Assembly: GCF_025244845.1 (NCBI RefSeq) | Contig: NZ_CP104264.1 | Location: forward strand, 496,001 to 560,000 | From: Arthrobacter sp. zg-Y1171 | GTDB lineage: Bacteria; Actinomycetota; Actinomycetes; Actinomycetales; Micrococcaceae | DNA length: 64,000 bases | Direction: 5' to 3' | In this document: one piece after another, positions 3,967-14,444 of the stretch | Position numbering within the stretch: position 1 is the stretch's first letter | Layout of the letters: the number at the start of each line of letters is the position of its first letter | The notes under the pieces: model-generated | The model's database searches: none | What the model saw: the letters and a program-made list of their open reading frames with translations, nothing else | What the model was told of the DNA's origin: nothing | Position numbers and translations under genes: made by a program

Positions 3967-5049
3967 GTGAACACTCCTACGCTTCCGGACCGCACGTGGG
4001 CCGAGACCGCCATCCGCCGCATCGAGGCCGAGGGGGCACGCTCGGCGGACACGCATCTGTTCCAGGTCCCGGTCCCGGCCGGCTGGTCCGTGCAGATCTA
4101 CCTGAAGGACGAGTCCACCCATCGCACCGGCAGCCTCAAGCACCGGCTCGCCCGCTCCCTCTTCCTCTTCGGCCTGGTCAACGGCTGGATCACCGAGGGC
4201 ACCACCATCGTGGAGGCTTCCAGCGGTTCCACCGCTGTCTCGGAGGCTTACTTCGCCCAACTGCTGGGACTGCCGTTCGTGGCCGTGATGCCGCAAACCA
4301 CCAGTGCGGAGAAGATCCGGCTGATCGAGCACTACGGCGGGCGCTGCCACTTCGTCGAGGAGCCTTCGGAGGTGTACGCCGCCGCGGAGGCCGTCGCGGC
4401 CAGCACCGGCGGGCACTACATGGACCAGTTCACGTACGCAGAACGCGCCACTGACTGGCGGGGCAACAACAATATTGCCGAGTCGATCTTTTCCCAGATG
4501 GCCCAGGAGGACCATCCGCTGCCGGACTGGATAGTGGTGGGTGCCGGGACCGGCGGGACAAGTGCAACGATCGGCCGCTATATCCGTTATCACCGGTATC
4601 CCACCCGCCTGGCCGTCGTGGATCCGGAGAACTCGGCGTTTTTCCCCGCCTGGCAGAATCCGGGGGAGCCCGCGGCCGGAAGGCCCTCCCGGATTGAAGG
4701 TATCGGCCGGCCGCGGCCGGAACCCAGCTTCGTTCCGGCGGTAATCGACCATATGATCCAGGTCCCGGACGCCGCATCTGTGGCTGCTGCACGGCACCTG
4801 AGGCGGCTCACCGGGCTGCATGCCGGCCCCTCCACCGGCACCAATCTCTGGGGTGTCTGGCAGCTGGCCGCCGCCATGGAAGCGGACGGCCGTGCCGGAA
4901 GCATCGTCTCGCTTGTGTGCGATTCCGGGGATCGGTACACCGCTTCCTACGGCGACGACGCCTGGCTGGCGTCCCGCGGACTGGACCCGGCCCGGGCCAC
5001 GGCCGTGCTGGAGGAACTGTTCCGGACCGGGCGGTGGCCTGCGGGCTGA
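3967..5049 (+). CDS. PLP-dependent cysteine synthase-like protein, Cds1 (L-cysteine desulfhydrase) type
   Basis: This 360-residue fold-type II PLP enzyme carries the lysine motif [13 protein letters not shown] near residue 55, the substrate/phosphate loop [14 protein letters not shown] near residue 90, and the glycine-rich cofactor loop [16 protein letters not shown] near residue 190. The long insert with NGWITEGTT and the C-terminal [11 protein letters not shown] match the Cds1 group, which includes mycobacterial Rv3684 and degrades cysteine to H2S, ammonia and pyruvate, rather than CysK or CysM. The start is GTG and possibly leaderless. It is divergent from the quinone oxidoreductase and not part of a cysteine biosynthesis operon. 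Family assignment is firm; the desulfhydrase activity is inferred. Confidence 0.88.
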
Positions 5050-5110: not shown

Positions 5111-5122
5111 ATTGTTGACAAT
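5111..5122 (+). promoter_or_regulatory. GntR-type operator, copy 1 (before the ABC importer)
   Basis: ATTGTTGACAAT has inverted arms ATTGT/ACAAT around a TG centre. It lies 66 bases before the ABC substrate-binding protein and contains a consensus -35 hexamer, TTGACA (5115-5120), with TACCGT 17 bases downstream as a possible -10. A bound regulator would block this promoter. With flanks, 17 bp (AATTGTTGACAATCATG) are shared exactly with copy 3. Confidence 0.75.
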
Positions 5123-5188
5123 CATGTTTACCAAAAATACCGTGTGTGTGACCTAGCTTACTTTTTACACGGAAACCGGGGAATGACA

Positions 5189-6166
5189 ATGAAGCCAATT
5201 CTTAGGATGCTCGCCGCCTCCACTGCGGTCCTGGCTCTTGCCGCCTGCGGCTCGGGGTCGCCCAGCGGGGAGGCCGAAGACACCGGCGAGGCCGGTGGCG
5301 GTGAGCTCACCCAGGTGACGGTGGGAGTCATTCCCATCGTCGATGTTGCACCCATTTACCTCGGCGTCCAGGAAGGCTTCTTTGAAGCGGAAGGCCTGGA
5401 GTTGGAACTGCAGCCGGCCCAGGGCGGCGCGGCCATTGTTCCGGCCGTCATGAGCGGCAGCATGGACTTCGGTTTCAGTAACATTTCCTCGATGCTGCTG
5501 GCCAAGTCCAAGGGCCTGGATGTACAGGTGGTGTCCGCCGGAGCGGCGTCGACAGGCGAGGACGGCGCCGATTTCGGCGGCATCCTGGTCAACCCGGATG
5601 CCGGGATCGAGACGGCGGCGGACCTCGCAGGCAAGAAGGTCGCCGTAAACACCCTCAACAACATCAACGACACCACCGTCCGGGCCTCCGTTCGCAAGGC
5701 AGGCGGCGACCCGTCCGGCATCGAGTTCGTGGAGCTGGCCTTCCCCGATATGCAGGCAGCCCTGGAACGCGGCCAGGTGGACGCCATCCAGGTGGTGGAG
5801 CCCTTCCTGACGGGCGGGCAGAACGCCGGGTCCATTCCGATCGCCTCCAACTACGTGGATGCCGCAGACGATCTGACCGTCGCCGCCTACTTCACGACGT
5901 CGGCGAAGGCCGAGGATGATGCCGAGACGGTGGAGAAATTCACGGCGGCCATGAACAAGTCCCTGGAATACGCGGAGGAGAACCCGGACGCCGTCCGCGA
6001 GGTCCTGCTCACCTACACGAAGATCGACGCCGAGACCGCGAAGGCACTCACCCTGCCCAGCTTCACCACGGAGATCAATCGTGCCGGCGTCGAAACGCTC
6101 GCGGAGCTTTCGCTCAGTGACGGTTTGATCAGCGAAGAGCCGAAGCTGGATGAGTTGCTGCCGTAA
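5189..6166 (+). CDS. ABC transporter substrate-binding lipoprotein, taurine/sulfonate/nitrate (SsuA/NMT1) type
   Basis: A 325-residue lipoprotein. The signal peptide MKPILRMLAASTAVLALAAC ends in a lipobox (LAAC), predicting a lipid-anchored extracellular binding protein. The mature part has the NMT1/SsuA pattern: VIPIVDVAPIYLGVQEGFFEAEGL, then GGAAIVPAVMSGSMDFGFSN, then DLAGKKVAVNTLNN. GGGGA 6 bases upstream favours the ATG at 5189 over one two codons earlier. The TAA shares its A with the next ATG. Operator copy 1 lies upstream, and the neighbours degrade an aromatic acid, so the ligand is probably that acid or an ester/amide of it (inference). Confidence 0.9.
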   Translation: MKPILRMLAASTAVLALAACGSGSPSGEAEDTGEAGGGELTQVTVGVIPIVDVAPIYLGVQEGFFEAEGLELELQPAQGGAAIVPAVMSGSMDFGFSNISSMLLAKSKGLDVQVVSAGAASTGEDGADFGGILVNPDAGIETAADLAGKKVAVNTLNNINDTTVRASVRKAGGDPSGIEFVELAFPDMQAALERGQVDAIQVVEPFLTGGQNAGSIPIASNYVDAADDLTVAAYFTTSAKAEDDAETVEKFTAAMNKSLEYAEENPDAVREVLLTYTKIDAETAKALTLPSFTTEINRAGVETLAELSLSDGLISEEPKLDELLP

Positions 6167-7005
6167 TGAGTACTGAAGTGCTGAAACCCGGCCGGGCTGC
6201 GCAGCCACGCGCAGCCCGGCCGGGTGCGCGCCGTCCCGTGCCGAAACCGGTGCTGGGCCTGGTCGGGGTCCTCGGTTTCCTGCTGATCTGGGAACTGGTT
6301 CCAAGGCTCGGCCTGGTCCAGCCCCGCTTCCTGCCCCCTGCCTCGGAAGTCATCATGGCCCTCGTCCGGGACTTCGGGCTGACTGCCTTCTGGGTGGCCG
6401 TGGGGCACACCCTGATGGCCTGGGCCATTGGCCTGGCAGCCGCCGTCGTCGCCGCCGGCATCCTGGGCCTGGTGATCGGCATGAGCCCGTTCCTCCGACG
6501 GTTCACCAACTCCACCATCGAGTTCCTGCGCCCGGTTCCCTCGGTGGCCCTGATCCCGCTGGCCGTGCTGCTGTTCGGCGTCAAAATCGAATCCTCGCTG
6601 ATGCTGATCATCTACGCCTGCTTCTGGCAGGTGCTGATCCAGGTGCTCTACGGGGTGGCCGACGTCGACAACGTGGCAACGCAGACGGCACAGTCCTACG
6701 GCTTCTCCAAGCTGCAGCGGATCCGGCACGTGGTGTTTCCCACCGTGCTGCCGTACCTGATGACGGGCATCCGTCTGGCGGCCTCCGTGGCGCTGATCCT
6801 GGCCATCACCGCCGAGCTGATCATCGGCTCGCCCGGGCTCGGGCGTGAGATTGCGGACGCCCAGTCCGGCGGAGCCATCTCCGGCATGTATGCCCTGGTG
6901 CTGGCCACCGGCCTGCTGGGCGTGGCGATCAATATCGTGATGCGCCAGGTCGAGCAGCGCCTGTTGTCCTGGCATCCGTCCGTCCGCGGAGAGGTGGTGC
7001 TGTGA
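6166..7005 (+). CDS. ABC transporter permease, SsuC/TauC type
   Basis: A 279-residue inner-membrane permease with about six membrane segments. The BPD_transp_1 signature (EAA loop) that contacts the ATPase reads QTAQSYGFSKLQRIRHVVFPTVLPYLMTG near residues 182-210. Its start overlaps the substrate-binding gene by one base and its stop overlaps the next permease by four (GTGA). Two non-identical permeases in one operon imply a heterodimeric channel. The first ~25 residues are basic and proline-rich, a cytoplasmic tail. Confidence 0.9.
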   Translation: MSTEVLKPGRAAQPRAARPGARRPVPKPVLGLVGVLGFLLIWELVPRLGLVQPRFLPPASEVIMALVRDFGLTAFWVAVGHTLMAWAIGLAAAVVAAGILGLVIGMSPFLRRFTNSTIEFLRPVPSVALIPLAVLLFGVKIESSLMLIIYACFWQVLIQVLYGVADVDNVATQTAQSYGFSKLQRIRHVVFPTVLPYLMTGIRLAASVALILAITAELIIGSPGLGREIADAQSGGAISGMYALVLATGLLGVAINIVMRQVEQRLLSWHPSVRGEVVL

Positions 7006-7775
7006 AGACGCTCAAGAGCCTTGCCTACGTGGTTGCGCTGCCCCTGCTGCTGGTGCTCCTGTGGTGGGCTTCCACCCGGGGCGAACCGAACTTCTTCGTA
7101 CCCACCCCGTCCGCTCTGGTGGATGTCTTCGGTCCCACCTGGTTTGAGGGGCGGATCACCGGGGATGTCCTGCCGTCGCTGGGAAGGCTGCTCGCCGGGC
7201 TCGCCATCGCGATCATCCTTGGCATCGTCGTCGGGCTGCTGGTGGGCCTGAACCGGACGCTGCGGGCGCTGACCGAACCCGTGTTCGAGTTCTTCCGTGC
7301 CCTGCCGCCTCCGGTGCTGGTTCCGGTGCTGATCCTGCTGGTGGGCCTGAATGACGGCATGAAGGTTGCCGTGATTGTGGTCGGCTGCATTTGGCCGGTG
7401 CTGTTGAACACCATCGAAGGGGTGCGCTCCATTGATCCGGTGCAGAACGAAACGACCCGGTCCTACGGCATCTCCGGGATGAACCGGATCCGCTACCAGG
7501 TGCTGCCGTCTGCCGCGCCGACGATCATGGCCGGCATCCGGCAGTCGCTGTCCATCGGCCTGATCCTCATGGTCATTTCGGAAATGTTCGGTTCCTCCTC
7601 GGGACTGGGCTTCACTATTCTGCAGTTCCAGCGGTCCTTCGCCATCCCGGAAATGTGGTCCGGCATCCTGGTGCTCGGCCTGATCGGCCTGGCCCTGTCC
7701 CTGATCTTCCAATGGTGCGAACGGCGCGTGCTGCGCTGGTACCACGGCCTTAAAGAGGTAGAAAATGCAGCCTGA
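7002..7775 (+). CDS. ABC transporter permease, SsuC/TauC type (second subunit)
   Basis: A 257-residue permease homologous to its upstream neighbour, with the coupling loop TTRSYGISGMNRIRYQVLPSAAPTIMAG near residues 155-180. It starts with GTG inside the stop of the first permease and its last 11 bases overlap the ATPase start. About six TM helices are visible, from VVALPLLLVLLWWAS to ILVLGLIGLALSLIFQW. Confidence 0.9.
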   Translation: MKTLKSLAYVVALPLLLVLLWWASTRGEPNFFVPTPSALVDVFGPTWFEGRITGDVLPSLGRLLAGLAIAIILGIVVGLLVGLNRTLRALTEPVFEFFRALPPPVLVPVLILLVGLNDGMKVAVIVVGCIWPVLLNTIEGVRSIDPVQNETTRSYGISGMNRIRYQVLPSAAPTIMAGIRQSLSIGLILMVISEMFGSSSGLGFTILQFQRSFAIPEMWSGILVLGLIGLALSLIFQWCERRVLRWYHGLKEVENAA

Positions 7776-8640
7776 CGCCATCTCCGCCAAAACCACTCCG
7801 GCACCGGAAGGCACCGCACCGTCCGGGCGCACGCTGCCCGAGGGGGAAGCGCTGCTTTCGGTCCGCGGGCTGAAAAAGGTCTACTCCACCGACGGCGGCC
7901 CCATCGAAGCCGTCCGCAACCTCACCTTCGACCTGGGGCACGGCGAGCTGGCCTGCCTGGTCGGTCCCTCCGGCTCCGGCAAGACCACCCTGCTCAAGTG
8001 CATCGCGGGACTGCTCGGAGCCACCGAGGGCGAAGTGCTGCTCGACGGCAAGAAGGTGACGGCGCCGCCCAAGAAAATGGCGGTGGTCTTCCAGGAATAC
8101 GGCCGCTCCCTGTTTCCCTGGCTGCGGGTCGCGGACAACGTGGAGCTGCCCCTGAAGAACGCCGGCGTGCCCAAAGCGGAACGCCGGCAGCGGGTAGCCG
8201 ACGCGCTGGAGGCGGTGGGGCTGGAGAACGTGCCCAAGTCCTACCCCTGGCAGCTGTCGGGAGGGATGCAGCAGCGCGTGGCCATCGCCCGTGCGGTGGC
8301 GTACCAGCCGGAGGTGCTGCTGATGGACGAGCCGTTTGCCGCCGTCGACGCCCAGACCCGCGCCGATCTGGAGGACCTTACCCGGCGGCTGTGGAAGGAC
8401 CTGGGCATGACCATCCTGTTCGTCACGCACGACATCGACGAATCCGTGTACCTCGGTGAACGCGTCATCATCCTGTCCTCCTCGCCCACCGTGGTGCAGG
8501 AGGACATCCTGATCGACCTCCCGGAGGACCGTGACCAGCTGGAGACCCGGGGGATGCCGCGCTTCACCGAGCTGCGCCATCACGTCTACGAGCAGATCCA
8601 GCTCGCCAAGAAGGGCCACCGGCCGGACGCGGCGCGCTGA
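7765..8640 (+). CDS. ABC transporter ATP-binding protein, SsuB/TauB type
   Basis: A 291-residue ATPase with every expected motif: Walker A GPSGSGKTTLL, Q-loop QEYGRSLFPWL, signature LSGGMQQRVAIARA, Walker B VLLMDEPFAAVD and switch His in FVTHDIDES. The nitrate/sulfonate/taurine subfamily is indicated by the Q-loop and by the permease partners. It completes the importer with two permeases and a lipoprotein; the four genes overlap or abut. A bidirectional-looking hairpin follows. Confidence 0.93.
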   Translation: MQPDAISAKTTPAPEGTAPSGRTLPEGEALLSVRGLKKVYSTDGGPIEAVRNLTFDLGHGELACLVGPSGSGKTTLLKCIAGLLGATEGEVLLDGKKVTAPPKKMAVVFQEYGRSLFPWLRVADNVELPLKNAGVPKAERRQRVADALEAVGLENVPKSYPWQLSGGMQQRVAIARAVAYQPEVLLMDEPFAAVDAQTRADLEDLTRRLWKDLGMTILFVTHDIDESVYLGERVIILSSSPTVVQEDILIDLPEDRDQLETRGMPRFTELRHHVYEQIQLAKKGHRPDAAR

Positions 8641-8662
8641 GCCCGGTAGGACAAACGACTTA

Positions 8663-8688
8663 CGGCCCCTCCCGCGAAGGAGGGGCCG
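8663..8688. terminator. Hairpin between convergent ABC and dioxygenase genes
   Basis: A 10-bp perfect stem (CGGCCCCTCC with GGAGGGGCCG) and 6-base loop CGCGAA lie between the ATPase stop and the converging dioxygenase stop, and could end transcription both ways. Confidence 0.7.
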
Positions 8689-8705
8689 CCGTCGTTATGC
8701 CGGGC

Positions 8706-9668
8706 TCACTCGGCGGGAAGCTCCACCGGGGGAGTGCCGTGGGTATGGAAGGTGTCGATGGTCTTCATGCCCCAGGCCTGGCCCTTGGCGCGCTCCGCCT
8801 CGGTCCATTCGATGGTTTTCCAGTCCGGTGCCAGGATCAGGCGGGCACCGGCGTTGCAGAATTCGATCCGGTTGCCGCCGGGCTCATACACATACAGGAA
8901 AAAGGTCTGCTGGATGGCGTGTTTGTGCGGCCCGGTTTCGATGTGGATGCCGTTTTCGAGGAAGATGTCCGCAGCCTTGAGGATGTCTTCGCGGGTGTCG
9001 GTGGCGAACGCGACGTGGTGCAGCCGGCCGCTGCTGCCGGTCCAGTCACCGCTGTACACCAGGTCATAGGACTTGTTGGAGAAGGTGAACCACTGGCCGG
9101 AAAGCCTGCCGTTGTCCAGCCGGATCTGTTCGGTGGGCTTGCCGCCCAGCACCTCTTCCACGAACCGGCCGTTCTCGGCAACGTCTGCGCCGAGGAAATT
9201 GACGTGGTCCAGCCGGCGGGCGTTCACGCCGCGGCCCGGGAAACGGTCCGCCTGGTTCTTCAAGGCCGGCCGGGACTCTTCGGTGGGCACATGCCATTCG
9301 CTGTCAAAGTAGATGTCCATCGGATGGCCGTCCGGATCCGTGAAGGCGTAGGTCTTGCCCATGCCCGGGCCGCCGTCGTGCCAGCCGACTCCGCGTCCTG
9401 CCGCCTCGATGGCCGCAACGCGCCGTTGCAGCGCCTCTTCGCTGGCGGCGCGCAGGCCCAGGCGTCCGACGCCGGAAGTCTCGTGGGCGGTGAGTTTGAT
9501 GGTGTGGTGTTCGTAGTCGTCCCACGCGTGCAGGTAGGCGGAATCGCCCTCTCGGGCGACTTCGCGCATTGCCAGCAGTTCGGTGAAGAACCACAGGCTC
9601 TTGTCGAAATCCGGGGTATAGAGTTCCACGAAGCCCAGATGGGCTACGTCGCGAAAAGCATCAGGCAT
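8706..9668 (-). CDS. Type I extradiol (VOC-family) ring-cleavage dioxygenase, catechol 2,3-dioxygenase-like
   Basis: A 320-residue two-module vicinal-oxygen-chelate protein. The metal facial triad is recognisable in the C-terminal module: His144 (RRLDHVNFLG), His207 (RLHHVAFATD) and Glu258 (GGNRIEFCN), with spacing like XylE-type catechol 2,3-dioxygenases. It should cleave a catechol ring next to the diol using Fe(II) and O2. AAGGAA with a 6-base spacer sets the ATG at 9668. Operator copy 2 is 105 bases upstream. With GalD/LigJ/LigK-like enzymes nearby the substrate is probably a carboxylated catechol such as protocatechuate; I recall a type I protocatechuate 4,5-dioxygenase (PcmA) in Arthrobacter keyseri, but the regiospecificity here is inference. 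Confidence 0.85.
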   Translation of the reverse strand: MPDAFRDVAHLGFVELYTPDFDKSLWFFTELLAMREVAREGDSAYLHAWDDYEHHTIKLTAHETSGVGRLGLRAASEEALQRRVAAIEAAGRGVGWHDGGPGMGKTYAFTDPDGHPMDIYFDSEWHVPTEESRPALKNQADRFPGRGVNARRLDHVNFLGADVAENGRFVEEVLGGKPTEQIRLDNGRLSGQWFTFSNKSYDLVYSGDWTGSSGRLHHVAFATDTREDILKAADIFLENGIHIETGPHKHAIQQTFFLYVYEPGGNRIEFCNAGARLILAPDWKTIEWTEAERAKGQAWGMKTIDTFHTHGTPPVELPAE

Positions 9669-9773
9669 TGCGGTTTCCTTTGCGGTCTGCTGAAACGGCA
9701 CGGGCTTCGTTGCCGGCCTGCCGGTCCCGAAGCAGTGCTGAGAGTCAATCAGCGGCCCCGGGTATTGTCAACA

Positions 9774-9785
9774 ATTTCGCAGACA
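9774..9785 (-). promoter_or_regulatory. GntR-type operator, copy 2 (before the dioxygenase)
   Basis: ATTGTCAACAAT on the plus strand, i.e. ATTGTTGACAAT in the direction of the dioxygenase gene, so TTGACA again points at the gene it would control. It sits in the short gap between the dehydrogenase stop and the dioxygenase start. Confidence 0.7.
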
Positions 9786-9792
9786 ATGCAGG

Positions 9793-10575
9793 TCAGGCGG
9801 GGCCGGTGCCGTCTGCTGCCAGTGCGGACAACCAGCTGAATGTGCCTTCCGTCATCCAGGCAGGTGTGCCCAGTCCGCGGAGGTACGCCAAGGAGTCTGC
9901 GACCTCGTGCGCACGCCGCACGGCGTGCGTTTCCGAGCCCTGAAGGAGCCGGGCCACCAGGTCCGGCCCGTCCGGGCCCAGCTCCCCGGCGATTTCCGCC
10001 AGGAGCCACTCCTCCGCGCCGGCTGCTTTTCCGGCTGCCCGGCATTCCAGTACCAGACCAGCCAGTCCCTTCATGAAGACACTGCGCAGCAGTTTGCGGC
10101 CCGCCGCGGCGCCGGGGGCACCGGGGATCGTTTCCACCGGGGTGCCGAAGCCTTCCATCAGGGCGGCAAACCTGTCCGCCGCGGTGCCGCTGACAAGGAG
10201 CGGGGTTCGGCTGCCGGCCCGGGGGACGGGCGCCATGACGGCCACGTCCACCAGGGCCACTCCGTAGCCTGCGGAGAGTTCGGCAAGTGCGGCTTTGTCC
10301 TCCGGACCGGCGGTGTTGAAATCCGCGAACACGGCGTTCGAGGGAAGCAGCGGAAGTATCTGCTCCGCGACGCTGCGCGCGGCGGCGGCGCCGACCAGGC
10401 TGATGGCCAGATCCGTTCCGTCAACGGATTCGGCAAGCGAGTCGAACTGGCGGATGCCGGCGTCGCGTGCGTCGGTGTACGGGTCGTAGCCGCGTACGTC
10501 CGCCCCGGCCTCGGCCAGGCCCAGTGCGTACAGGCGTCCGGCTTCGCCCAGGCCCAGTACGGTCACCGCAGTCAT
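9793..10575 (-). CDS. NAD(P)-dependent oxidoreductase with C-terminal DUF1932 domain
   Basis: A 260-residue protein of the beta-hydroxyacid dehydrogenase/6-phosphogluconate dehydrogenase-like superfamily. It opens with the dinucleotide-binding motif TVLGLGEAGRLYALGLAEAG, continues with ADFNTAGPEDKAALAEL and ALVDVAVMAPVPRAG (substrate loop), and has GRKLLRSVFMKGLAGLVLEC carrying the catalytic-type Lys in the DUF1932 half. GAGAGGA with a 7-base spacer sets the ATG at 10575. Operator copy 3 is 41 bases upstream. Being in the regulon, it may oxidise the ring-cleavage semialdehyde or another pathway intermediate; DUF1932 proteins are not known for that, so the role is open. Confidence 0.8.
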   Translation of the reverse strand: MTAVTVLGLGEAGRLYALGLAEAGADVRGYDPYTDARDAGIRQFDSLAESVDGTDLAISLVGAAAARSVAEQILPLLPSNAVFADFNTAGPEDKAALAELSAGYGVALVDVAVMAPVPRAGSRTPLLVSGTAADRFAALMEGFGTPVETIPGAPGAAAGRKLLRSVFMKGLAGLVLECRAAGKAAGAEEWLLAEIAGELGPDGPDLVARLLQGSETHAVRRAHEVADSLAYLRGLGTPAWMTEGTFSWLSALAADGTGPA

Positions 10576-10615
10576 GGTTGTGTCCTCTCGTAGCTGTCCG
10601 CCGATTATTGCCATG

Positions 10616-10627
10616 ATTGTCAACAAT
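10616..10627 (-). promoter_or_regulatory. GntR-type operator, copy 3 (between dehydrogenase and gntR)
   Basis: ATTGTCAACAAT on the plus strand. It lies between the divergent dehydrogenase (start 10575) and regulator (start 10736) genes. On the dehydrogenase strand it reads ATTGTTGACAAT with TTGACA facing that gene, and its 17-bp extended form matches copy 1 exactly. It could also mediate autoregulation of gntR. Confidence 0.72.
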
Positions 10628-10735
10628 TCCAAGCTACGGCCGCCCGCCGGGGGCTGGGGGACTGTGATGCAGTGATAACTTGGCGTGACACCAAAAATGA
10701 GGGCGGGCGGGTGCCGTTTCGCCGAGGAGCTTCAA

Positions 10736-11410
10736 ATGACAGCAGATGCAGCAGCGACCACGAGTAACGCTGCGCAGGTGGCGGACGCAATCCGCACGGC
10801 AATTCTTGACGGCGAGCTGGTGCCGTCCCAACGGCTCGTGGAGGCGGACCTGTGCACGCAGTTCAAGGCGAGCCGCAGTGCGGTCCGCTCCGCCCTTGCC
10901 GAGCTCGCCGTCGAGGGCGTGGTGGAGCGGGTGCAGAACCGCGGAGCCCGCGTGCGGTCGGTGCCCGTGGAAGAAGCCGTAGAGATCATTGAGGTCCGGG
11001 GCGTGCTGGAGGCGCTGTGTGCCCGCAAGGCAGCGGAGCGGATTGATGCCGGGCAGGTCTCCGAACTCCGGCAGATGGCCGACGACATGGCGTCCGCCGT
11101 AAAGGCCGGCGAACTGATGCGCTACTCGGAGATCAATTCCAGGCTCCATCGGCGGATCGTGGAAATCAGCGGCCAGGGAACCGCCGGTGCCACCATCGAA
11201 AGGCTGCGGGCACAGAATGTGCGCCACCAGTTCCGGCTTGCGGTCCAGCCTGGGCGTGCCAACGTTTCGCTGCCGGAACACGTGGAAATCATTGAAGCCA
11301 TCTGCGCCGGGCAGGGCGAGCAGGCTGCCCGCATGATGGAGACCCACATGGCGAGCATTGCCGACGCCATCCGCCGGACAGGCTCAGCGCCCCCGCACTA
11401 TGCCGCGTAG
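10736..11410 (+). CDS. GntR-family transcriptional regulator, FCD (FadR/VanR) subfamily
   Basis: A 224-residue regulator. Residues ~12-75 form the winged helix-turn-helix, with AIRTAILDGELVPSQRLVEADLCTQF and SRSAVRSALAELAVEGVVER. Residues ~85-215 are the all-helical FCD effector domain, where a metal commonly helps bind a carboxylic acid; the expected Asp/His-type residues appear in SEINSRLHRRIVEIS and LPEHVEIIEAI. GAGGAG 6 bases upstream fixes the ATG at 10736. The four ATTGT-N2-ACAAT sites around it are the obvious operators, and a pathway acid the probable inducer (inference). Confidence 0.92.
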   Translation: MTADAAATTSNAAQVADAIRTAILDGELVPSQRLVEADLCTQFKASRSAVRSALAELAVEGVVERVQNRGARVRSVPVEEAVEIIEVRGVLEALCARKAAERIDAGQVSELRQMADDMASAVKAGELMRYSEINSRLHRRIVEISGQGTAGATIERLRAQNVRHQFRLAVQPGRANVSLPEHVEIIEAICAGQGEQAARMMETHMASIADAIRRTGSAPPHYAA

Positions 11411-11485
11411 TATGCCTAGCCGCCGCCAATCGAACGCGCGGCACGGTTAGCGGCTGCTGCTCCGCTATTTGTCTTTGTCACCGTT

Positions 11486-11497
11486 ATTGTCAACAAT
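11486..11497 (+). promoter_or_regulatory. GntR-type operator, copy 4 (before the tautomerase operon)
   Basis: ATTGTCAACAAT, 22 bases before the GTG of the tautomerase gene. Relative to its gene it is in the opposite orientation to the other three copies and so does not supply a -35 box; it would act over or just after the transcription start. It overlaps another short inverted repeat, GTCAAC-N6-GTTGAC. Confidence 0.7.
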
Positions 11498-11519
11498 CTG
11501 GTTGACGAGGTACATTCTT

Positions 11520-12716
11520 GTGGTGCAGACCACAGAAAAGTCCTCGGTGCCGGGTTCCGTCCGCGGCAGCCAGCTCGGCATCCCCTGCTGGTTCATGCGG
11601 GGAGGAACCTCCCGCGGACCCTTCTTCCGCCGCACCGACCTGCCGGCTGACCTGCACGGCGAACGCCGGGACGAGGTGCTGCTTGCCGCCCTCGGATCTC
11701 CCCACCCGCTGCAGATTGACGGGCTGGGAGGCGGTAATCCGCTCACCAGCAAGGTGGGGATCGTGGACGTCAGCAGCCGGGACGGGGTGGACCTGGAGTT
11801 CCAGTTCGCGCAGCTGCAGCCGACTTCCGACACCGTGGATACCACGGCCAACTGCGGAAACATGCTCGCCGCCGTCGTTCCGTTCGCCGTGGAGTCCGGC
11901 CTCCTTCTGCCCGGCGGGGATACCACCACCGCCCGGGTCCTGACGCTGAACACGGGCATGGTGGCCGAAATCAGCATCGCGACGCCGGCAGGGGACCAGG
12001 GCCGGTTTGTCGAGTACGGCGGGGATACGCGGATCGACGGCGTTCCCGGCACGGCGGCGGCAGTCACCATCAACTTCCTGGACACGGCCGGTTCCGTCTG
12101 TGCCTCCCTGCTTCCCACCGGCAACGCCAGCGACACGGTGGTTCTCGACGGCGTAGGTCCGGTCCGCGTCACCTGCATCGACAACGGCCAACCGCTGGTG
12201 ATGGTCCGGGCCACGGACCTGGGCCGCACCGGCTACGAATCCGCCGCCGAGTTGAACCGTGACGAAGAGCTGAAGCAGAGGCTTGAAGCACTGCGGCTCC
12301 AGTGCGGGCAGCTGATGGGGCTGGGAGACGTCACCGCCAAGAACTACCCGAAGATGACGCTGGTAGCCCCGCCGGCATACGGCGGCACCATCACCACCCG
12401 CAGCTTCATCCCGCATGTCTGCCACGAATCCATTGGCGTGCTGGCCGCCGTCACCGCTGCCACCGCGTGCGTCATTGACGGCACCGTGGCACGGGAAGTC
12501 AGCACCGTTGCTGATGCCGGCCCCGGAGCAGACCTGACGGTTTCGGTGGAGCATCCCTCCGGCGAATTCACCGTGGCACTCGGGCTTGACCCGCAGGACC
12601 CCCAGCACGTCACCAAATCCGCGCTGCTGCGCACCGCCCGGCTGATCATGGCCGGCGAAGTTTTTGTCCCGCACCGTCTCCAGGAGGCGGCAGCAACAGA
12701 GGAGAACACCCGATGA
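11520..12716 (+). CDS. 4-oxalomesaconate tautomerase (PrpF family, GalD-like)
   Basis: A 398-residue PrpF-type isomerase with the diaminopimelate-epimerase fold. The family opening is clear (GIPCWFMRGGTSRGPFF), followed by DGLGGGNPLTSKVGIV, then TANCGNMLAAVVPFA with the catalytic-type Cys, and the C-terminal half with DVTAKNYPKMTLVAPP. GalD shifts the keto form of 4-oxalomesaconate to its enol so that it can be hydrated. A GAGG 9 bases before GTG 11520 decides the start. The stop overlaps the next gene (ATGA). The neighbouring hydratase and aldolase make GalD a better reading than methylaconitate isomerase PrpF. Confidence 0.88.
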   Translation: MVQTTEKSSVPGSVRGSQLGIPCWFMRGGTSRGPFFRRTDLPADLHGERRDEVLLAALGSPHPLQIDGLGGGNPLTSKVGIVDVSSRDGVDLEFQFAQLQPTSDTVDTTANCGNMLAAVVPFAVESGLLLPGGDTTTARVLTLNTGMVAEISIATPAGDQGRFVEYGGDTRIDGVPGTAAAVTINFLDTAGSVCASLLPTGNASDTVVLDGVGPVRVTCIDNGQPLVMVRATDLGRTGYESAAELNRDEELKQRLEALRLQCGQLMGLGDVTAKNYPKMTLVAPPAYGGTITTRSFIPHVCHESIGVLAAVTAATACVIDGTVAREVSTVADAGPGADLTVSVEHPSGEFTVALGLDPQDPQHVTKSALLRTARLIMAGEVFVPHRLQEAAATEENTR

Positions 12717-13768
12717 TCATCGATTGCCACGGCCATTACACCACCGCCCCGCCGGCCCTGGGCGGCTGGCGGGACCGGCAGATTGCGGCGCTCGCCGATC
12801 CCGGAACGGCTGCTCCGGACCCGGCGGACCTGGTCATCAGCGACGATGAACTGCGGGAAAGCATCTCCGCGAACCAGCTGCGCCTGATGGATGAGCGGGG
12901 TATCGACCTGACCATCTTCTCGCCGCGGGCCTCCTTCATGGCACACCACGTAGGGGACTTCGCCACTTCCGCCGCGTGGGCGGCCATCTGCAACGAGCTG
13001 TGCTTCCGGGTCAGCCAACTCTTCCCGGACCGGTTTGCTCCGGCCGCCATGCTGCCGCAGTCACCCGGAGTGGACCCGGCGTCCTGCATCCCGGAACTGG
13101 AACGCTGCGTCAACGAATACGGTGCCGTGGCGCTGAACCTCAACCCGGACCCTTCCGGCGGCTACTGGACCGCCCCTCCGCTGACGGACCGCTCCTGGTA
13201 CCCGATCTACGAAAAGATGATCGAGTACGGACTGCCGGCGATGATCCACGTAAGCACCAGCGTGAATCCTGCCTTCCACACCACGGGCGCCCACTACCTC
13301 AACGCGGACACCACCGCGGTGATGCAGCTGATCCAGGGGGACCTGTTCAGGGACTTCCCGGAGCTGAAGTTCGTTATTCCGCACGGCGGCGGCGCCGCGC
13401 CCTACCACTGGGGGCGCTTCCGCGGGCTGGCCATGGCACTGAAGAAGCCGCCGCTGGAGGAACACCTGCTCAACAACGTCTTCTTCGACACCTGCGTCTA
13501 CCACCAGCCCGGTATCGACCTGCTGTTGGAGGTGATGCCCACCCGGAACATCCTCTTCGCTTCCGAGATGATCGGAGCGGTGCGCGACGTCGACCCGGAC
13601 ACCGGGTTCAACTTCGATGACACCGGGCGGTACCTGGCTGCAGCCGGCCTGACAGGCGAGGAGCTTGCCGATATCCGCGAGAACAATGCCCGTGCCGTCT
13701 ATCCGCGCCTGGATGCGCTGTTGACCCGGCAGGGCCGTGAACCCCAAAGGAGCAGCACCCATGCATGA
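12713..13768 (+). CDS. 4-oxalomesaconate hydratase (LigJ-like, amidohydrolase superfamily)
   Basis: A 351-residue metal-dependent TIM-barrel protein. It opens [19 protein letters not shown], the LigJ-type variant of the HxH metal site. Further residues expected of the site lie in [28 protein letters not shown] and [12 protein letters not shown]. LigJ adds water to the enol form of 4-oxalomesaconate giving 4-carboxy-4-hydroxy-2-oxoadipate. It overlaps the tautomerase by 4 bases and the aldolase by 8, so the three are one translationally coupled unit. A related amidohydrolase (ACMS decarboxylase-like) is the alternative family, less likely in this context. Confidence 0.88.
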
Positions 13769-14444
13769 ACTCGGAGTGGTCCACCGCAGCATCACCCGTG
13801 CCCCGCAGCCCGACGTCGAGGCCCTGGCCCCGTACGGGACCAGTACCGTGCACGAGGCCATGGGCCGGTTGGGGCTGATGCGGCCCTACATGCGCCCCGT
13901 CTACCCCGGCGCCAAACTCTGCGGCCCGGCGGTCACCGTGCTGCTGCAGCCTGGGGACAATTGGATGCTGCACGTGGCCGTTGAACAACTCCAGCCCGGC
14001 GACGTGCTGGTGGCAGCCTGCACCACGGAGAGCGAAGACGGCTTCTTCGGCGAGCTGCTGGCAACTTCGGTGCGTGCACGCGGCGGTGTTGGTTTGGTCA
14101 TCGACGGCGGCTGCCGCGACGCTGCGGCCCTGCAGGAAATGGACTTTCCCGTGTTCTCGCGTGCCATCAACTCCAAGGGCACGGTCAAGGCGACCCTGGG
14201 TTCGGTAAACGTTCCGATCGTGTGCGCCAACGCCTTGGTGAACCCCGGCGACGTGGTGGTTGCAGATGTGGACGGCGTCGTCGTCGTTCCTGCCGACCGT
14301 GCCGCAGAAGTGGCCGAGGCCTCCCGGAAGCGGGAGGACAACGAGGCGGCCAAACGCGAACGCCTCGCCGCGGGAGAACTCGGACTGGACATGTATTCGA
14401 TGCGGGGACCGCTGGAAGCGGCAGGACTGCGCTACATCGATTAG
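13761..14444 (+). CDS. 4-carboxy-4-hydroxy-2-oxoadipate aldolase/oxaloacetate decarboxylase (LigK/GalC, RraA-like)
   Basis: A 227-residue RraA-fold class II aldolase that cleaves 4-carboxy-4-hydroxy-2-oxoadipate into pyruvate and oxaloacetate. Visible are [37 protein letters not shown] and the signature [17 protein letters not shown], whose Arg-Asp pair binds substrate and Mg2+. C-terminal [17 protein letters not shown] is typical of the family. AAAGGAG with an 8-base spacer selects the ATG at 13761 over an upstream GTG. It is the last gene of the operon, and a strong hairpin follows. Confidence 0.9.

Follow-up and report, generated by a model that had tools for sequence, protein, structure and literature searches.

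The window analysed here is a 64,000-nucleotide stretch of the Arthrobacter sp. zg-Y1171 genome (contig NZ_CP104264.1, positions 496,001 to 560,000), and it carries a cluster of genes that probably serve the uptake and degradation of a ring-shaped aromatic acid, together with a single gene for a GntR/FCD regulator and four copies of a 12-nucleotide dyad, which we discuss as candidate operators of that regulator (Table 1). The tautomerase, hydratase and aldolase constitute the lower-pathway set for 4-oxalomesaconate (OMA), and all of them score above curated cutoffs or match solved enzymes. In the lig and gal pathways, LigU, LigJ and LigK take OMA to pyruvate and oxaloacetate. The predicted ring-cleaving enzyme displays a two-domain vicinal oxygen chelate (VOC) fold with a 2-His-1-Glu iron site, and its structure model has a mean predicted local distance difference test score (pLDDT) of 78.9, with some low-confidence stretches. 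A search of this genome for LigB-type dioxygenases (PF02900) gave no match at E ≤ 0.001, the control search being positive in 4 of 14 known genomes; because of this, the type I enzyme is the sole ring-cleaving candidate among the scanned genes of the locus. Directly 5' of the first dyad copy, at 3967-5049, lies a gene for a pyridoxal phosphate enzyme that matches the NCBIfam model of L-cysteine desulfhydrase Cds1 at 602.7 bits against a cutoff of 600.

Table 1. Candidate operator copies, genes and putative promoters of the locus (window coordinates)
Feature	Position	Strand	Basis or remark
Operator copy 1 (ATTGTTGACAAT)	5111..5122	+	5' of importer operon; exact string search
Operator copy 2	9764..9775	-	5' of extradiol dioxygenase gene; exact string search
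Operator copy 3	10616..10627	-	Between divergent DUF1932 and GntR genes; exact string search
Operator copy 4	11486..11497	-	5' of OMA tautomerase gene (GTG 11520); exact string search
NMT1/SsuA-like substrate-binding protein of ATP-binding cassette (ABC) importer	5183..6166	+	Family scans
ABC permease 1	6166..7005	+	Family scans
ABC permease 2	7002..7775	+	Named from position
ABC ATPase	7765..8640	+	Family scans
Type I (VOC) extradiol dioxygenase	8706..9668	-	Catechol 2,3-dioxygenase model 325.6 bits, cutoff 320.2
NAD-binding DUF1932 dehydrogenase-like protein	9793..10575	-	Family scans
GntR/FCD regulator, 224 aa, predicted binder of four operators	10736..11410	+	Domain scans
OMA tautomerase LigU/GalD	11520..12716	+	NF033377 489.1 bits, cutoff 440; OMA isomerase 6p3j 3e-104
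OMA hydratase LigJ	12713..13768	+	2gwg 1.8e-175; NCBIfam gave no match
4-Carboxy-4-hydroxy-2-oxoadipate aldolase LigK/GalC	13737..14444	+	TIGR02798 386.7 bits, cutoff 304.5
Putative promoter at copy 1	5115..5143	+	-35 TTGACA 5115-5120 within operator, 17-nt spacer, -10 TACCGT 5138-5143; consensus match
Putative DUF1932 promoter	10604..10632	-	TTGGAA 10632-10627, 17-nt spacer containing operator copy 3, AATAAT 10609-10604; by eye, consensus match
Putative tautomerase promoter	11487..11516	+	TTGTCA 11487-11492, 18-nt spacer, TACATT 11511-11516; by eye, consensus match

The dyad and the regulator encoded beside it

Across the genome, a single contig of 3,421,827 bases, a search for ATTGTNNACAAT revealed four copies, all of them at this locus, and the reversed control gave no match in the same genome. 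An order-3 Markov model of the window predicts 0.007 such 12-mers per 64 kb and 0.37 per genome. When up to two mismatches were allowed, the window yielded eight matches, namely the four places on both strands (shuffle mean 1.07), and no further window position matched the ten fixed bases with zero or one mismatch. A chance origin of the four copies was rejected on the genome-wide count, the Markov expectation and the half-site permutation counts given below. The original prediction had judged chance very unlikely and had proposed a genome-wide scan for the 12-mer; in that scan, no copy turned up among genes unrelated to the locus.

Two ATTGT arms flanking two bases make the element a perfect dyad, whose continuous symmetry stops at the arms. 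Copy 1 is located 61 nucleotides past the stop at 5049 and 60 nucleotides ahead of the ATG at 5183, copy 2 lies 95 nucleotides ahead of the ATG at 9668, copy 3 lies 40 nucleotides ahead of the ATG at 10575 and 108 ahead of the GntR ATG at 10736, and copy 4 is 22 nucleotides ahead of the GTG at 11520. An intergenic copy before each of the four transcription units around the single GntR/FCD gene had been predicted, and the positions and genes agree with this, all four copies being extragenic with the chosen starts (longer TTG-start frames would include copies 3 and 4). Three of the four predicted start positions (5111, 10616 and 11486) stand; the second, given as 9774, is really 9764, and copies 1 and 3 share 18 identical bases, GAATTGTTGACAATCATG, rather than the 17 first counted.

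The regulator combines a GntR winged helix (PF00392, 58.1 bits, cutoff 27) with an FCD domain (PF07729, 91.3 bits, cutoff 24.3); its C-terminal domain is helical, and structure comparison was topped by GntR/FCD structures. The metal ligands of FCD domains are an Asp and three His residues, and Asn134 of the regulator presumably stands at the usual Asp position. Across 28 aligned sequences, Asn134, His138 and His182 are nearly invariant, and His204 and R47 are invariant. The arrangement ATTGT-NN-ACAAT fits the TKGT/ACMA boxes of the FadR subfamily, with a GT-AC spacing of 2. The element belongs to a known operator type and the regulator-operator case is a familiar one; what is unusual is finding a type I dioxygenase with an OMA pathway. 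We judge it highly probable that the four elements serve as operators for the FCD-type GntR protein whose gene lies among them, in a local regulon whose repressor would be released by a pathway acid. This local regulon, as originally proposed, is supported by the confinement of all four genomic copies to the locus and by comparative genomics.

Conservation of the site and of its neighbors

Within the genus, the regulator was detected at E ≤ 1e-40 in 11 of 29 genomes. In the ten genomes with an ortholog at E ≤ 1e-100, 36 of the 40 locus sites are exact, the other four carry one or two mismatches, and two more copies lie elsewhere. The counterpart of copy 1 is exact in nine of these ten and has two mismatches in the tenth, and that of copy 2 has one mismatch in three. 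The eleventh genome (60% identity) has one site, located between the dioxygenase and tautomerase genes and 2.9 Mb from the regulator, or about 0.7 Mb if its 3.56-Mb contig is circular. The 18 genomes without a regulator match contain four copies of the 12-mer in total.

Fetching loci by the regulator alone across sequenced contigs gave 51 loci (975 kb, 28-100% identity). They come from Arthrobacter, from numerous Actinomadura and Actinoallomurus and from further Actinomycetota; two are from Meiothermus, and three are distant loci of proteobacteria. The palindrome occurs 53 times in these sequences, in 38 loci (33 of the 46 outside Arthrobacter), and each of 19 other arrangements of the half-site occurs 0 times in the same 975 kb. 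At the genome level, all 30 genomes scanned (for 30 of the 51 loci) contain the 12-mer in one to four copies, some of them from other loci, with two control matches in total. The sites, the genes, the exclusivity within this genome and the conservation are established by sequence.

Gene content was counted in 58 loci, of which 54 have the regulator and four are off-locus sites. Because certain genomes contribute two loci, the 54 are not independent; L062, L063 and L066 (40, 32 and 28% identity, no site) were left out. The 54 regulator loci contain the site in 43 cases, LigK in 42, DUF1932 in 36, VOC in 34, LigU in 34, GalB in 32, the importer binding protein in 17 and LigJ in 10. GalB, which has a PIG-L domain and matches the OMA hydratase 5cgz at 2.1e-77, and LigJ are two unrelated OMA hydratases; none of the 54 loci contains both, and both are absent from 12. 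Just 3' of the site, many Actinomadura loci have galB-aldolase-tautomerase, mostly followed by the dioxygenase. The operator also marks pathway genes on contigs other than the regulator's, and five sites (L069, L090, L098, L108 and L110, of which L090 is not in the content count) stand ahead of genes for the importer, the tautomerase or GalB/aldolase, the 4-6 kb retrieved in each case containing no regulator. The regulator adjoins the importer only, with no exact site, in L031, L032, L043 and L050; in the genomes of L032 (G038) and L050 (G050), pathway genes and a site are found on a different contig from the regulator.

Exclusivity of the 12-mer to this regulator across bacteria was rejected, as the 12-mer also lies beside other FCD regulators in other genera; genome-wide counts elsewhere therefore do not identify this regulator. 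Among 20 stretches with the 12-mer, four (L148, L150, L151 and L156) hold this ortholog, 13 hold another GntR protein and three (L139, L147 and L152) hold neither. The 13 other proteins are 31-50% identical to the regulator of locus L107, and the four that were scanned all have FCD domains. In other Micrococcaceae (L137, L138, L140-L146, L149 and L153-L155), two to four exact 12-mers occur near a different GntR/FCD regulator, so that local regulons with several copies of the element are apparently common. A second conserved locus in Actinomadura, Pseudonocardia and relatives (L078, L079, L089, L107, L115 and similar) reads GATTGTTGACAATC, 14 nucleotides, TAGCGT; its site lies between a DUF3830/Amdase-domain/FCD-regulator unit and a divergent 2-hydroxyacid dehydrogenase/amidase unit (Pfam was run on L107 and two regulators, and these sites were not counted as regulon members). 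In L071 and L073, which look orthologous, and also in L139, L142 and L149, ATTGTTGACAAT stands about 28 bp ahead of a start reading ATGACTTC. The 12-mer seems to represent an operator type shared by a broader set of regulators. The proposed regulator-operator pair thus holds as the best reading in this genome, that of a local regulon, and not as a unique pair.

Promoter context and the proposed control

The original prediction had placed a consensus -35 inside the operator. Our inspection found this coincidence convincing at copy 1 only; it is weak at copy 2 (weak -10, TTGACT, 17-nucleotide spacer), and at copy 3 the operator lies in the spacer of a better promoter, whose xATAAT is kept in the compared Arthrobacter loci. 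TTGACA is, as had been described, directed at the gene in copies 1-3 and inverted in copy 4, near the start codon. The palindrome always gives TTGTCA in the opposite direction, and the inverted copy still supplies a putative promoter aimed at its gene, which would imply a leaderless start at about GTG 11520 or 11523.

That the elements are merely strong -35 regions (TTGACA in an A/T context) seems to us very improbable. In favor of this reading, in 42 non-redundant sites from regulator loci (<60% identical over 92 bp), TANNNT follows TTGACA by 17 or 18 nucleotides in seven (shuffle mean 0.7, maximum 4) and NANNNT does so in 24 (shuffle mean 3.5, maximum 9), and a non-consensus -10 at the right distance is likely in many sites. 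The count was restricted to these 42 because, in a wider set of 89 sites that included other FCD loci, 13 of the 20 sites with TANNNT at 17 or 18 nucleotides (shuffle mean 1.6; in the reverse direction, 3 at 17 and 5 at 18) came from other FCD or unassigned loci. However, at least four matches to TATAAT at that spacing are found in 1 of the 42 (shuffle mean 1.6), which is no enrichment, and a -35 requires neither the left arm nor the dyad; in this genome, moreover, the copies are confined to the regulator's neighborhood. Orientation was scored in 79 de-duplicated sites from L016-L069 (without L031 and L032), L118-L136 and ten chosen loci, with off-locus sites of other kinds excluded: TTGACA points only toward a recognized gene in 20, only away in eight, has genes on both sides in 22 and no recognized gene within 450 bp in 29. 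All eight away-only sites are the Arthrobacter tautomerase site, that is, eight of the eight such loci compared. Plain -35 context as the whole story was rejected on the orientation and TATAAT counts. At the four non-exact orthologous positions in relatives, TTGACA is retained and one arm has lost one or two bases, a pattern that, for this small number of sites, is in keeping with two constraints acting separately; retention of the central TG/CA may serve the -35.

For the local regulon, we infer binding, repression and effector identity as follows. Without inducer, a dimer of the regulator would occupy ATTGT-NN-ACAAT, over or inside each promoter, and block RNA polymerase at the operons for the importer and for the tautomerase, hydratase and aldolase, as well as at the genes for the extradiol dioxygenase and the DUF1932 protein (with gntR perhaps affected too). 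Once the aromatic acid had been imported and cleaved, OMA, 4-carboxy-4-hydroxy-2-oxoadipate or the acid itself would bind the FCD domain, and the DNA would be released. Several points weigh against this proposal. An exact site is missing from 13 of the 51 loci, among them four with the regulator beside the importer alone and the three proteobacterial ones (28-40% identity), and the proposed effector is guessed by analogy with the regulator PmiR, discussed below, and from the pathway. At the family level, the 12-mer is absent from 20 of the 64 genomes with a regulator match (E ≤ 1e-45) but present in 96 of the 331 that have no such match (a hand count, with two draws of 395 taken as the same genomes and seven candidates per genome scored as a rule); therefore, other proteins would read the 12-mer too. 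Another FCD regulator of this genome might bind the elements, alone or with this one, and two of the FCD regulators found beside the same 12-mer elsewhere are just 23% identical to this protein; we consider this unlikely, however, in that the four copies of this genome all lie around this gene, and the site and this ortholog co-occur across genomes. Judged from sequence, the regulator may also act as an activator or a dual regulator, and in principle a factor working at the -35 could make use of copies 1 and 2. Still, the sites overlap a putative -35, a spacer or a leaderless start, and PrpR, with the same operator core, is a repressor (PMC9765439), so that an activator or dual regulator has, by our estimate, only a small chance of being correct.

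Relation to known systems

The operator of MdcY reads ATTGTATACAAT, and PmiR, the best PDB sequence match of our regulator, is a protein that we take to be the same as Pseudomonas aeruginosa PrpR (PA0797). In FadR-subfamily GntR regulators, TKGT/ACMA boxes stand two bases apart in the GntR, HpxS, HypR, MdcY, PrpR and UxuR groups (PMC4494728), with GT and AC placed as in ATTGT-NN-ACAAT; for none of the groups named in the available part of that article is control of the OMA pathway stated. In gel shifts, PrpR, whose predicted operator is ATTGTCGACAAT, bound the DNA ahead of prpR, and the operon is derepressed when PrpR is lost (PMC9765439). The likeness to our element is this ten-base core, whereas the center is CG rather than TG, and the accessible text names one site upstream of prpR as against four here. 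The mutated places of PrpR, R54, L67-R68 and V80 (PMC9765439), fall on matching residues of the PmiR chain at one constant offset from our regulator, and R54, changed in a derepressed mutant, aligns with the invariant R47. PrpR/PmiR governs the 2-methylcitrate operon (propionate), whereas the regulator here sits by aromatic-acid genes; the methylcitrate genes prpB/C/D are not among its neighbors, which are OMA-pathway genes. The regulator thus appears to work like PrpR, yet is not a PrpR.

The gal (Pseudomonas putida) and lig (Sphingobium) systems share the tautomerase, the hydratase (GalB or LigJ) and the aldolase with this locus. Their regulators, however, are LysR-type and their ring cleavage is carried out by LigB-type enzymes, in contrast to the GntR regulator and type I dioxygenase described here. 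Gallate dioxygenases are placed in the LigB superfamily in the part of PMC4250580 available, and a Pseudarthrobacter is known to have a protocatechuate 4,5-dioxygenase of type II (PMC8431788). Among the matches listed in the open-licence literature, judged by titles and abstract openings, no report of this regulon was found, and the only match by title for the operator string concerns LacI-repressed promoters.

More tentatively, and with less than even confidence, we propose that the operator outlines an OMA module of the Actinomycetota, with Meiothermus as outliers, in which a type I VOC and not a LigB-type dioxygenase would cleave gallate or a close hydroxybenzoate, a single conserved regulator and operator would govern GalB and LigJ as interchangeable hydratases, and a pathway tricarboxylate would be sensed by this regulator as 2-methylisocitrate is by PmiR. 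This proposal is weakened by the 9 of 42 aldolase loci without a VOC gene (L021, L022, L026, L028, L030, L033, L040, L045 and L046) and the 9 of 42 without LigU, including both Meiothermus loci. The comparison with PrpR further suggests two uses of FCD regulators with this operator core around isomerases of the PrpF family, one in the methylcitrate operon and the other at this locus.

At base resolution, these findings supply a candidate regulator and operator, with their predicted target genes, for an aromatic-acid pathway. As a tracer, the operator ties genes on other contigs to the regulator and reveals GalB and LigJ as alternatives in one slot. It also suggests that a type I enzyme may carry out the ring cleavage of an OMA pathway, a step that for gallate is filed, in the part of the source available, under LigB-type enzymes (PMC4250580).

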